This document shows positions 22,918 to 26,826 of a stretch of DNA of 41,524 bases, piece by piece. Numbering within the stretch: the stretch's first letter is position 1; every line of letters begins with the position of its first letter. The stretch spans positions 1 to 41,524 of the forward strand of contig RFPI01000006.1 in NCBI GenBank assembly GCA_009926205.1, written 5' to 3'. The position numbers and the translations under genes were made by a program. Under the pieces are notes generated by a model. It saw only the letters and a list, made by a program, of their open reading frames with translations. It did not search any database and was not told where the DNA came from. The DNA comes from Methylophilaceae bacterium. Its GTDB lineage: Bacteria; Pseudomonadota; Gammaproteobacteria; Burkholderiales; Methylophilaceae.

Positions 22918-23862
22918 ATGACACAGATTTCTTTAGCCAATCCGCGAGGTTTTTGTGCGGGTGTCGATCGTGCCATCGTGATTGTAGAAGAGGCGCTACG
23001 CAAATTTGGCGCTCCAATTTACGTTCGACACGAGGTGGTGCATAACAAATTTGTAGTAGAAGAATTAAAAGCTAAGGGTGCTGTGTTTGTTGATGAGCTC
23101 GACCAAGTCCCCAGTGGTGCCACCGTGATTTTTAGTGCCCATGGTGTTTCCAAGCAAGTGCGTCATGAGGCGGATCAACGAGGACTAAATGTATTCGATG
23201 CGACCTGTCCTTTGGTGACCAAAGTCCATATCGAAGTCGAAAAAATGCGCGCCGAGGGAAAAGAAATCATCATGATAGGCCATCGTGGACACCCAGAGGT
23301 TGAAGGCACGATGGGTCAATCTCAGGGAGGCATGTATCTGGTCGAGAGTGTCGATGATGTTGCACAATTACAAGTAAAACATCCCAATCAACTCGCTTAT
23401 GTGACCCAGACCACACTGTCGATTGATGATGCCGCAGAGATAGTGTCTGCCCTGCAGCAACGCTTTCCAAATATTACAGCACCTAAAAGCGACTCGATTT
23501 GTTATGCCACACAAAATCGCCAAGATGCCATTAAAACTTTAGCACAGCAGTGCGAGGTGGTGATTGTGGTTGGCTCACCCAATAGCTCTAATTCAAATCG
23601 TTTGCGAGAAGTTGCTGAACTACAAGGCGCGCAAGCTTATATGGTAGACAATGCCAGTTATTTACAAACTGCTTGGGTGCAAGGTAAGCAAACTATTGGG
23701 GTTTCAGCAGGGGCTTCTGCCCCCGAGGTATTGGTCAAGGAAGTCATCAGTAGCTTGCAAAAAATGACGCAGGCGGATGTGATTGAACTCCCTGGAGTTG
23801 AGGAAAAAGTAGTCTTTCATCTTCCCAAGAATTTACGCGATGCAGAAAAAAAGGCGCATTAA
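22918..23862 (+). CDS. ispH: 4-hydroxy-3-methylbut-2-enyl diphosphate reductase IspH
   Basis: IspH (LytB) carries out the last step of the MEP isoprenoid pathway, giving IPP and DMAPP. The 314-residue enzyme has the three iron-sulfur cysteines C13 ([14 protein letters not shown]), C97 (DATCPLV) and C195 ([11 protein letters not shown]). The motif [14 protein letters not shown] is also typical. ATG 22918 directly follows the previous stop codon. Its stop codon is part of the loop of the following terminator. Confidence 0.97.
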
Positions 23863-23872
23863 GCGCCTTTTT
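23848..23872. terminator. Bidirectional terminator overlapping the ispH stop
   Basis: AAAAAGGCGC (23848-23857) and GCGCCTTTTT (23863-23872) form a 10-bp stem with loop ATTAA, so the ispH TAA lies in the loop. It serves both ispH and the convergent doxX gene. Confidence 0.92.
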
Positions 23873-23886
23873 GATTGGATGGAAAA

Positions 23887-24255
23887 TTATTTTTTCCAAC
23901 TATCCAAGCTATATGCTGTGGCTGGGTTGTTAGCCAAGATTAATAGTCCGCCGACAATCGCCAAATATTGAAATGGAGACAAACCTAAGGCCAAAGAGAT
24001 AAAAATGGCATAAATCGCCATGCCAATCGCAGCAGCTCTTGTTTTATAGCCTAACAACAGCAGGGCTCCGCCCACTAATTGCACCAAAATAATCAATGGA
24101 GCAAAGATGCCAGGTAGCCCTTGATGTCCCAAGGCATTTTGATAATCCACATAACCATTAGGATTGTTGCTAAAGCCGTAAATCAATACGATGACTTGCA
24201 ACAAAAATAATTGCGCAATCAGTATGCGACCAAGAAAACTAAATGCTTTGTTCAT
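23887..24255 (-). CDS. DoxX-family membrane protein
   Basis: This 122-residue protein has four hydrophobic helices and the DoxX family pattern (FLGRILIAQLFL, LVQLVGGALLLLGYKTRAAAIGMA). DoxX-type proteins are linked to oxidative-stress responses or thiosulfate/quinone chemistry, but most have no established function. The family's early conserved helix and the GGxxLLLGYKTR turn are clear. It is a single gene with terminator sequence downstream. Confidence 0.88.
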   Translation of the reverse strand: MNKAFSFLGRILIAQLFLLQVIVLIYGFSNNPNGYVDYQNALGHQGLPGIFAPLIILVQLVGGALLLLGYKTRAAAIGMAIYAIFISLALGLSPFQYLAIVGGLLILANNPATAYSLDSWKK

Positions 24256-24344
24256 GATTCCATCCTATAAAATTAAGCGTGGCATGAGTATATGTGAAGT
24301 TGATATCCTCGGCAAACTAGGCAAGAAATAATTGGAGTGTTGCA

Positions 24345-24782
24345 GTGCGTTACCCCGAACCAAATTTAAACATTGTGAGTTGGCAACAAGCCGAAGTTTC
24401 ATTGCGGCAGATTCGCGAGCAGGTATTTATGCAAGAGCAATCAGTGCCTGCTGAGTTGGAATGGGACGGTTTGGATGCAGAGGCTAAGCATCTATTGCTC
24501 AACATCGGTCAGCAACCGGTGGCATGTGCAAGATTATTGCCCACACAGCATTTGGGACGTATGGCGGTTTTGCCCGAGTGGCGTGGCAAAGGACTCGGCA
24601 GACGGCTTATGCAATGTGCCATTGATTATGCACAACATCACGCATGGCACGCTATTCATATATCCGCACAAATTCAAGCCCAAGGTTTCTATCAACGATT
24701 TGGTTTTACCGTCACAAGTGAGCCTTATTTAGATGCTGGCATATGGCATTGCGATATGCGCTTACAAATTTCTCCAGCATGA
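24345..24782 (+). CDS. GNAT-family N-acetyltransferase (ElaA-like)
   Basis: This 145-residue protein has the GNAT acetyl-CoA motif: LGRMAVLPEWRGKGLGRRLM with the R/Q-x-x-G-x-G/A pattern, preceded by the VACARLLP strand and followed by HISAQIQAQGFYQRFGF. The start region REQVFMQEQSVPAELEWDGLD is typical of the ElaA/YjcF subgroup. The substrate is unknown. The start is GTG 24345 with GGAG nine bases upstream. It precedes the Fae gene, which has its own promoter. Confidence 0.9.
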   Translation: MRYPEPNLNIVSWQQAEVSLRQIREQVFMQEQSVPAELEWDGLDAEAKHLLLNIGQQPVACARLLPTQHLGRMAVLPEWRGKGLGRRLMQCAIDYAQHHAWHAIHISAQIQAQGFYQRFGFTVTSEPYLDAGIWHCDMRLQISPA

Positions 24783-24783
24783 T

Positions 24784-24812
24784 TTGCTGATGTATGCTGG
24801 CTTGGGTAGAAT
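24784..24812 (+). promoter_or_regulatory. Probable sigma-70 promoter of the Fae gene
   Basis: TTGCTG (24784-24789) and TAGAAT (24807-24812) are separated by exactly 17 bases, with TG shortly before the -10 element. This gives a leader of about 45-50 bases before the ATG at 24866. Confidence 0.65.
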
Positions 24813-24865
24813 ACGCACCTCGAATTTTGTGCTTCTTTCATCAGTTTTTTTCAGGAATCTAAATT

Positions 24866-25408
24866 ATGTCCAAAATTATTTTTAAAGCGGGTGAAGCGAC
24901 TGTATTCAGCCCAGGTAAAGATGTCACTGCTGCTATGCCAGAGATTTTGATTGGCGCGGTGGATGGCCCAGTTGGCGCTGCTTTTGCCAATATGATGGCA
25001 CAAAGCAAAGGCCATACGGCCATGTTTGCTGTGCGCGATATCAATCAATTGGTACGCCCAGCATGTATGATGGTGCCAAAAGTAACGCTTAAAGATAGCG
25101 CTAATATTGAATTATTTGGTGGTGTGGTGCAGGCTGCTACAGCAGATGCCATTTTGGATTGTGTGATTGAAGGCATTATTCCAAAAGATCAAGTGAATGA
25201 TTTGTGCATCATCAGTTTGGTTTGGATTGACCCAGGTTGCGTTAAAGAAGCGAACTTGGATAAAGCGGATATGTATAAAAACAATTACGAAGCGACTAAA
25301 TTGGCGATTAAGCGTGCTCTGAACGATGAGCCTAGCATTGATGAGTTAATCAAAAATCGTAAAACCATTAAGCATTGTATGTGGGACGAAAGCTGGGGCG
25401 AGATCTAA
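24866..25408 (+). CDS. Formaldehyde-activating enzyme (Fae) homologue lacking the catalytic histidine
   Basis: True Fae condenses formaldehyde with tetrahydromethanopterin in methylotrophs. This 180-residue protein aligns along its length with Methylobacterium Fae as I remember it: LFGGVVQA, VIEGIIPKDQVNDL and NNYEATKLAIKRALNDEP match well. The catalytic histidine that lies just before the I-D-L-I-I-G strand is replaced by M24 (AAMPEILIG). Five cysteines are present (C67, C99, C114, C125, C171), and the C-terminal tail ends with two tryptophans. It is thus a Fae2/Fae3-like paralogue and possibly not a formaldehyde condensing enzyme. Ribosome site AGGA precedes ATG 24866; promoter and terminator make it monocistronic. 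Confidence 0.88.
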   Translation: MSKIIFKAGEATVFSPGKDVTAAMPEILIGAVDGPVGAAFANMMAQSKGHTAMFAVRDINQLVRPACMMVPKVTLKDSANIELFGGVVQAATADAILDCVIEGIIPKDQVNDLCIISLVWIDPGCVKEANLDKADMYKNNYEATKLAIKRALNDEPSIDELIKNRKTIKHCMWDESWGEI

Positions 25409-25432
25409 TTCTTTCGCATTGTAAAGCTAATA

Positions 25433-25462
25433 AAAAAGCAGTTCTTGTGAACTGCTTTTTTT
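25433..25462. terminator. Terminator after the Fae gene
   Basis: GCAGTTC and GAACTGC around a TTGT loop form a stem flanked by A and T runs (AAAAAAGCAGTTC, GAACTGCTTTTTTT). It ends the Fae transcript and can also serve the convergent small gene. Confidence 0.92.
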
Positions 25463-25484
25463 ATGTCTGCTATTCCACTAGTTT

Positions 25485-25730
25485 TTAATCACGCTGAGCG
25501 GAGGATTGATATGGTCTCAAATCTAATGGTGGGGAGCGCATGATTTTATCTATCACCAAACGCGCCATCGCCCAGGCGCGCTCCTCACGCATCAGTTCTA
25601 ACTCATGCTCTTCATATGGCAAATAGCGACCGCCATGCGTGAGCGAATAGCGTACAGAGTTCTCTGGCTTGGCATATGCCAGAATCACATCCTGCACTCG
25701 TTCAGCTCGACTCTTGTATAAGCTAGCCAT
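25485..25730 (-). CDS. Small conserved-looking protein of unknown function
   Basis: I do not recognise this 81-residue protein. It is soluble and largely helical in appearance, with many Arg and Glu residues (KSRAERVQDVILAYAK, EHELELMREERAWAMARLVIDKIM) and a tyrosine-containing central turn (RYSLTHGGRYLPYEE). The start is ATG 25730, preceded by GAGTGAG; a GTG one codon earlier is possible. It lies 46 bases downstream of mutY on the same strand. Codon use looks like that of its neighbours, which supports a real gene. Confidence 0.65.
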   Translation of the reverse strand: MASLYKSRAERVQDVILAYAKPENSVRYSLTHGGRYLPYEEHELELMREERAWAMARLVIDKIMRSPPLDLRPYQSSAQRD

Positions 25731-25776
25731 CACTCACTCAAAAAGAAGTTAATCAAAATTTGAATCAAATGAGAGT

Positions 25777-26826
25777 TTATACAGGCTGTATTAGGTTTAG
25801 CAATATCTTTCTTACTGGCGTAGGAATAGCCGCATTGACGGCCTCATGCAGTGGCAGCCAAAGTAGCTGGGGAGCGTGCGCTTGTGGTGCGCGTTCAGAT
25901 AGATGCATGGGTTGCGGAATAATGTTCAACTTGTAATGCGTGAAGCTATGCGGCACTTCTGCTAGCGGTTCACTGGCTTGGGCTTGAAGTGCAAATCGCG
26001 TTTGCAGCACTTGGTCGGGAATCTCTTGCGCTGATATCTCCGGTAAACTCCATAAGCCTCCCCAGATTCCGCTGGGAGGACGTTTCTCTAACAACACCTC
26101 ATCGCCATCCAAGACGATTAACATCACCGTATGTTTTTGTGGCAGGCTTTTCTTTGGCTTGCTGGTGGGTAGGATGGCGACCATTTGTTGTGCATAGGCT
26201 TGGCAACTGCTTTGGATAGGACATTCTATGCAACGCGGTTTACTGCGAGTACATAGCGTTGCTCCTAAGTCCATCAAGCCTTGGGTATAAGCCACGATAT
26301 TTTTATGAGGTAATAGTTGCTCTGCCAGTTGCCACATTTGTTTTTCAATCTTAGGTTGCCCCGGCCAACCTTGAATTAAAAAGTGACGCGCAAAAATTCG
26401 TTTCACATTGCCGTCTAAAATGGCTTGCTGTTGTTCAAAGGCGAATGCAGTAATCGCTGCGGCGGTAGATCGACCTATACCAGGCAAGGATAAAATATCT
26501 GGCATTTGCTGAGGGAATTGTCCGGCAAATTCATCGACAATTTTTTGTGCAGCGTCATGTAGATTGCGTGCACGGGAGTAATATCCCAGACCACTCCAGT
26601 AGCGCATCACTTCCTCTTGCGGGGCGGCGGCTAAGGCTTGTACATCGGGGAAGCGTTGCATAAAGCGTTGATAGTAAGCAATCACCGCCTGCACTTGGGT
26701 TTGTTGCAACATAATTTCTGACACCCAAATGGCGTAGGCATCATGCGTATTTTGCCAAGGCAATTGATGGCGACCATGCACTTGTTGCCACGCGATAATC
26801 TTTTGTGAGAAATCAGTGTGTGACAT
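25777..26826 (-). CDS. mutY: A/G-specific adenine glycosylase MutY
   Basis: MutY removes adenine mispaired with 8-oxoguanine. The 349-residue protein has the catalytic E37 (SEIMLQQTQ) and D138 (LDGNVKRI), the helix-hairpin-helix LPGIGRSTA at 114-122, and the [4Fe-4S] ligands C192, C199, C202 and C208, all at the E. coli positions. The C-terminal MutT-like domain (about 230-345) recognises 8-oxoG. It is in a minus-strand run with uppP upstream (42 bases) and the small unknown gene downstream. Confidence 0.97.
   Translation of the reverse strand: MSHTDFSQKIIAWQQVHGRHQLPWQNTHDAYAIWVSEIMLQQTQVQAVIAYYQRFMQRFPDVQALAAAPQEEVMRYWSGLGYYSRARNLHDAAQKIVDEFAGQFPQQMPDILSLPGIGRSTAAAITAFAFEQQQAILDGNVKRIFARHFLIQGWPGQPKIEKQMWQLAEQLLPHKNIVAYTQGLMDLGATLCTRSKPRCIECPIQSSCQAYAQQMVAILPTSKPKKSLPQKHTVMLIVLDGDEVLLEKRPPSGIWGGLWSLPEISAQEIPDQVLQTRFALQAQASEPLAEVPHSFTHYKLNIIPQPMHLSERAPQAHAPQLLWLPLHEAVNAAIPTPVRKILLNLIQPV

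Follow-up and report, generated by a model that had tools for sequence, protein, structure and literature searches.

A Fae2 protein without the catalytic histidine in a Methylophilaceae genome that has the H4MPT pathway and no other Fae homologue found

The window analysed here is a stretch of 41,524 nucleotides from a Methylophilaceae bacterium (GenBank assembly GCA_009926205.1, contig RFPI01000006.1, forward strand). It carries a gene, fae2, for a protein of the formaldehyde-activating enzyme (Fae) family, together with the signals expected of an independently expressed gene (Table 1). The first-pass annotation had assigned this gene its own promoter and terminator, and both assignments hold. 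A simple consensus scan gave no score for the promoter; in 14 relatives its -10 box and an upstream TTG persist amid intergenic DNA that has otherwise diverged, and the hairpin downstream of the gene is followed by a T-run. An Rfam search from 23500 to 26500 gave no match. DoxX, GNAT and mutY genes adjoin fae2 here and are conserved beside it in other genomes, but no functional link is evident and they suggest no function for it. Among the window proteins tested, none other than Fae2 is the product of a methylotrophy gene.

Table 1. Features of the fae2 locus, in positions of the window
Feature	Position	Strand	Basis or remark
DoxX, GNAT and mutY genes	23887..24782 and 25777..26826		conserved fae2 neighbours, at 52-66 of about 80 Methylophilaceae loci
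promoter TTGCTG-N17-TAGAAT	24784..24812	+	sequence; -10 and upstream TTG kept in 14 relatives
ribosome-binding site AGGAA, ATG 8 nt downstream	24853..24857	+	sequence
fae2 (Fae-family protein, 180 aa, without the catalytic histidine)	24866..25408	+	PF08714, 2.7e-59; sole Fae homologue of the genome
M24-P25-E26 codons (for His17-Ile18-Asp19 of canonical Fae)	24935..24943	+	1y5y alignment; MPE in 117/117 distinct Fae2
His50 codon	25013..25015	+	every Fae2 (117/117) and Fae3 (49/49) has it; 57/62 His17-bearing Fae do not
Lys72-Val73-Thr74 codons	25079..25087	+	K72 and T74 = Lys66 and Thr68 of M. extorquens Fae (alignment)
Gln89 codon	25130..25132	+	= Gln83 of M. extorquens Fae (alignment)
His170 codon	25373..25375	+	invariant across Fae2, Fae3 and canonical Fae
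intrinsic terminator hairpin (13-bp stem, 4-nt loop, T-run), symmetrical, usable from either strand	25432..25461	.	sequence

The protein scores 200 bits against PF08714 (cut-off 27) over residues 9-172, which bears out the earlier reading of a full-length Fae paralogue, and 144.7 bits against TIGR03126, the NCBI equivalog-domain model for formaldehyde-activating enzyme (cut-off 118). By sequence, its only solved relatives are the Fae of M. extorquens (1y5y/1y60) and a chain deposited as "Avd". (Chain B of PDB 8ub7, with 290 residues, is deposited under that name, as in nine entries; its residues 130-284 are letter-identical to M. extorquens Fae, and it is apparently a fusion construct.) When a predicted Fae2 model was searched with Foldseek, the top five matches were 1y60/1y5y (E 2e-11 to 1e-9, rmsd 7-9 Å). 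The AlphaFold model was built from Fae2 sequences only and has a pLDDT of 64, with residues 35-76 below 50; the search with this model confirms the Fae fold, and the fold is all that it supports. A scan of genome contigs returned 252 relatives of the window protein, the best 80 of which are 84-96% identical to it over the full length and come almost entirely from Methylophilaceae. The viral contigs searched held no relative.

An alignment of 228 distinct Fae-family proteins falls into three classes at the His17 column: 117 with MPE, 49 with EPE and 62 with histidine. In a maximum-likelihood tree of 71 representatives from an earlier, first alignment, the three groups each occupy one side of one branch (support 98/89 for Fae2, 100/96 for Fae3 and 100/100 for canonical Fae). 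Fae2 and Fae3 share a side, with the deepest joins uncertain owing to long branches, and the window protein lies within the Fae2 clade, apart from Fae1 and Fae3. The three types can occur side by side: in the alphaproteobacterial genus g381, three genomes (G508, G622, G740) have one Fae1, one Fae2 and one Fae3 each, and a fourth (G614) has the same set with a second Fae3. Published work on nine Methylophilaceae genomes from Lake Washington reported fae2 in every one and fae3 patchily (PMC4109929). This pattern fits the MPE class for fae2 and the EPE class for fae3. The published fae2 of Methylobacterium aquaticum 22A (Maq22A_1p31155) lies on plasmid 1p (PMC7356819), which has exactly one Fae gene; its product belongs to the MPE clade and is 60.6% identical to the window protein. 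As the plasmid record carries no locus tags, this gene is presumably the published fae2, and from the Lake Washington distribution and the plasmid together we infer that the MPE class is the published Fae2. The window copy does not differ in substance from the Fae2 of other Methylophilaceae, Methylobacterium and Methyloversatilis. It is thus an ordinary member of a known subfamily, but in a genome without Fae1; neither the subfamily nor the standing of the gene as sole Fae homologue had been part of the first-pass annotation.

In formaldehyde-activating enzyme, His17 is the general acid that aids the condensation of formaldehyde with H4MPT. The window protein has Met24 in this column: on alignment to 1y5y, M24 lies under the histidine of AHIDLIIG, P25 under the isoleucine and E26 under the aspartate, and no other histidine of the protein falls in that column. 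The missing histidine had been recognised from the start; an invariant His50, common to Fae2 and Fae3 and a candidate substitute, had gone unnoticed. M24, P25, E26, H50, K72, T74, Q89 and H170 are invariant in all 117 distinct proteobacterial Fae2, and EPE replaces MPE in each of the 49 Fae3. K72, T74 and Q89 occupy the positions of canonical Lys66, Thr68 and Gln83, which we take to be H4MPT contacts. Fae2 shares with canonical Fae (Fae1; M. extorquens, 1Y5Y, 1Y60) the fold, alignment over the full length, these three positions and that of His159; it differs in His17 to Met, Ile18 to Pro, Asp19 to Glu, Leu48 to Phe and Phe44 to His50, has an insertion of about five residues near 126-131, and is about 30% identical. 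Fae3 is a sister clade that likewise lacks His17 and has Pro25-Glu26 and His50, but it carries Glu at position 24, is 41-48% identical to Fae2 and is patchily distributed. No statement that Fae2 lacks the catalytic histidine was found in the open-access literature, to which the search was confined.

What might His50 be doing? It is present in all 166 Fae2 and Fae3 proteins, and in 57 of the 62 His17-bearing proteins the position holds Phe, Val, Asp, Ile, Met or Ala. Residue 50 sits four residues ahead of the position of Leu48, presumably another contact in the H4MPT site, and is probably on the same strand, so that His50 could face the site; the predicted model is poor in just this region. A strict reciprocal exchange of His17 for His50 across the family is ruled out, since five sequences have both. 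These make up a fourth, Burkholderiales-type group of Fae-like proteins with an HIN motif (L257-L260 and L282), found in Burkholderiales-type and other families of Gammaproteobacteria. Like Fae2, they belong to the Fae family and have a histidine at position 50; unlike Fae2, they keep His17 and have lost the Asp, the Thr and the residue at the His170 position (Asp19 to Asn, Thr68 to Gln or Glu, His159 to Asn).

The gene is under strong constraint. Set against three other genomes, the window genome shows 87-96% identity in Fae2 and 68-73% in Mch, and comparison of fae2 with its relatives gives dN of 0.05-0.10 and dS above 1.6 or saturated. A pseudogene or a sequencing error is ruled out by dN well below dS and by the invariance of MPE in 117 distinct relatives. 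The early view of a gene that has its own promoter and is deliberately kept is upheld. That Fae2 is a decaying or redundant paralogue without function can hardly be right: the lack of a growth phenotype in a Methyloversatilis universalis FAM5 mutant (PMC5023235) would agree with it, but it is contradicted by identity of 87-96% across genera, by dN far below dS, by the conserved promoter and near-universal retention, and by the growth defect of the M. aquaticum mutant (PMC7356819). Constraint does not extend to every feature that first drew attention. The five cysteines are present, but four of them vary among Fae2 proteins (C171 83%, C99 82%, C125 73%, C67 46%) and only C114 (97%) is near-invariant, which speaks against the suggested new cysteine chemistry, and the "tryptophan-rich tail" amounts to two tryptophans, W173 and W177.

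Why is a Fae without its general acid retained so faithfully? The distribution of the gene points to the H4MPT pathway. Mch and Fae were sought in 120 Methylophilaceae genomes, of which 93 were good (at least 90% complete and at most 5% contaminated). Seventy of these have both Mch and Fae2 and 22 lack both; Mch occurs alone in a single genome and Fae2 alone in none. Among the good genomes, Fae2 thus accompanies mch in 70 of 71 and never occurs without it; the mch-less genomes belong mainly to two reduced genera of 1.1-1.4 Mb, and the counts are thus phylogenetically clustered and reflect few independent losses. (The single exception, G013, with loci L150 and L151, has Fae1 and Fae3.) Outside the family, all 18 good genomes with Fae2 have mch, and Fae2 and Mch are both present in a Thiodictyon MAG. 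In most Methylophilaceae, the neighbours of fae2 are DoxX, GNAT and mutY, and the pathway genes lie elsewhere. The earlier remark that no methylotrophy gene is nearby is correct for the window, but it does not hold everywhere: on three betaproteobacterial replicons, those of Azoarcus KH32C, Aquabacterium olei and G715, fae2 follows directly behind fhcBADC, the H4MPT pathway operon (in G715, the order is fhcA, fhcC, fae2, pabB).

Fae2 has retained the site but not the acid, and genomes retain Fae2 only together with the pathway; it would therefore be expected to handle H4MPT or its C1 adduct. On this evidence, Fae2 is probably an H4MPT-pathway protein that uses the Fae pterin site without His17 and is not equivalent to Fae1, the enzyme of bulk flux. 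The protein has the fold of Fae and keeps its H4MPT contact residues, with Met-Pro in place of the general-acid histidine, and it most likely binds H4MPT or a formaldehyde adduct of it (hydroxymethyl- or methylene-H4MPT) in the ancestral site. Any proton transfer would then have to come from Glu26 or from His50, which is specific to Fae2 and Fae3. The idea put forward at first, that the protein binds a pterin without condensing it, is plausible in view of the retained contact residues. Use of another C1 carrier or aldehyde, such as tetrahydrofolate, with Fae2 shuttling C1 units between carriers, has been suggested for other Fae-like proteins of methanotrophs and Methyloversatilis; here it is very unlikely, since strict co-occurrence of Fae2 with mch, like its H4MPT contact residues, points to the methanopterin carrier.

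The window genome is 96% complete, and Fae2 is the only Fae homologue found in it, although the assembly is fragmented and a fae1 could have been missed. One of its contigs (C45) encodes fhcC, fhcD, fhcA, fhcB, a beta-RFAP synthase (mptG-like), an MtdB-like dehydrogenase, Mch and an MptN-like ligase. (MtdB was assigned by gene place and sequence similarity among these genomes, with no family model.) It is not alone: 12 good mch-bearing genomes from four genera, the window genome included, lack any histidine-bearing Fae and carry Fae2, some of them Fae3 as well. This is about one-sixth of the well-assembled Methylophilaceae genomes that have the methanopterin formaldehyde pathway. Three of the Fae1-less genomes (G019, G021, G028) are single contigs, and in each of them the genes clustered with mch were read. 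An isolate without Fae1, "Methylophilaceae 7", had already been noted in 2014 (PMC4109929); the record is extended here from that one isolate to 12 genomes in four genera. Two DNA searches of plasmids with the fae1 region of G003 found nothing.

As these 12 genomes have no Fae-family type but Fae2 (some also Fae3), Fae2 might itself condense formaldehyde with H4MPT to methylene-H4MPT, with Glu26, His50 or both as the acid, and so be the working Fae where Fae1 has been lost. The retained H4MPT contacts would suit such an enzyme, as would the invariance of His50 in both clades that lack His17 and its absence from most proteins that have it. However, this condensation also proceeds spontaneously, without an enzyme (PMC8879981), and Methylophilaceae can consume formaldehyde via the RuMP cycle (PMC4109929), so that a cell without Fae1 is no proof of Fae2 activity. 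Furthermore, the active-site columns are unchanged in the Fae1-less genomes, the five proteins with both His17 and His50 show that the swap is not strictly reciprocal, and fae1 mutants fail on methanol even with fae2 present (see below). A condensing Fae2 is accordingly unlikely. In the fuller proposal, Fae2 would be a formaldehyde-H4MPT enzyme that works independently of histidine 17, its acid-base group having shifted to His50 (with Glu26), and in several Methylophilaceae lineages it would have taken over from canonical Fae as the sole enzymatic entry to the methanopterin pathway; this should be considered rather unlikely.

Published mutants bear on these questions. Fae2 has some physiological weight: its deletion in M. 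aquaticum 22A slows growth on methanol and lowers the yield (PMC7356819), whereas the corresponding deletion in M. universalis FAM5 left growth on methanol and on methylamine unimpaired (PMC5023235). Loss of fae1, on the other hand, prevents growth on methanol in M. aquaticum 22A (PMC7356819) and in M. universalis FAM5 (PMC5023235), although fae2 is present in both, and the preferred reading accordingly treats Fae2 as not equivalent to Fae1. As for genes named fae3, the one in M. universalis is induced by methylamine (PMC5023235), and one from M. alcaliphilum did not complement a fae-null AM1 strain (PMC11748545).

A Fae that has lost its acid and retained its site could also be a non-catalytic sensor or regulator, responding to formaldehyde or methylene-H4MPT and reporting the state of the C1 pool. 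Sensing roles have been proposed for Fae homologues (PMC3728764, PMC11748545), and the moderate, condition-independent level of the fae2 transcript in Methylotenera and Methylovorus (PMC3728764), like the extreme conservation of the protein, would be in keeping with such a role. However, Fae2 has no effector domain and no conserved regulatory neighbour, and chemotaxis of M. aquaticum to formaldehyde and methanol requires none of fae1, fae2 and hgd (PMC10613068). A sensor is thus possible, if doubtful, and the probable reading remains that of a pathway protein working in the Fae pterin site.

Fae-like proteins fall into groups that have long been recognised while their function stayed unassigned (PMC11748545). 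What makes Fae2 interesting is that, taken together, one histidine is invariably lost and a new one invariably present, retention with the pathway is near-perfect, and some genomes have no histidine-bearing Fae at all. Fae1-less genomes that have Fae2 and the H4MPT pathway, some of them on single contigs, allow a direct test of Fae-like function. They also call for caution in annotation: fae serves as a marker of methylotrophy, and TIGR03126 scores the histidine-less Fae2 above its cut-off as formaldehyde-activating enzyme.

Fae2 is also found on a plasmid of a purple sulfur bacterium, Candidatus Thiodictyon syntrophicum (NZ_CP020372.1, 424397-424951; L239). The protein is 84.5% identical to that of the window and its gene lies close to IS66 and integrase genes, which suggests that it was transferred from Methylophilaceae. 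In the related Thiodictyon MAG (L093), mch and a second Fae-family gene lie on one contig.
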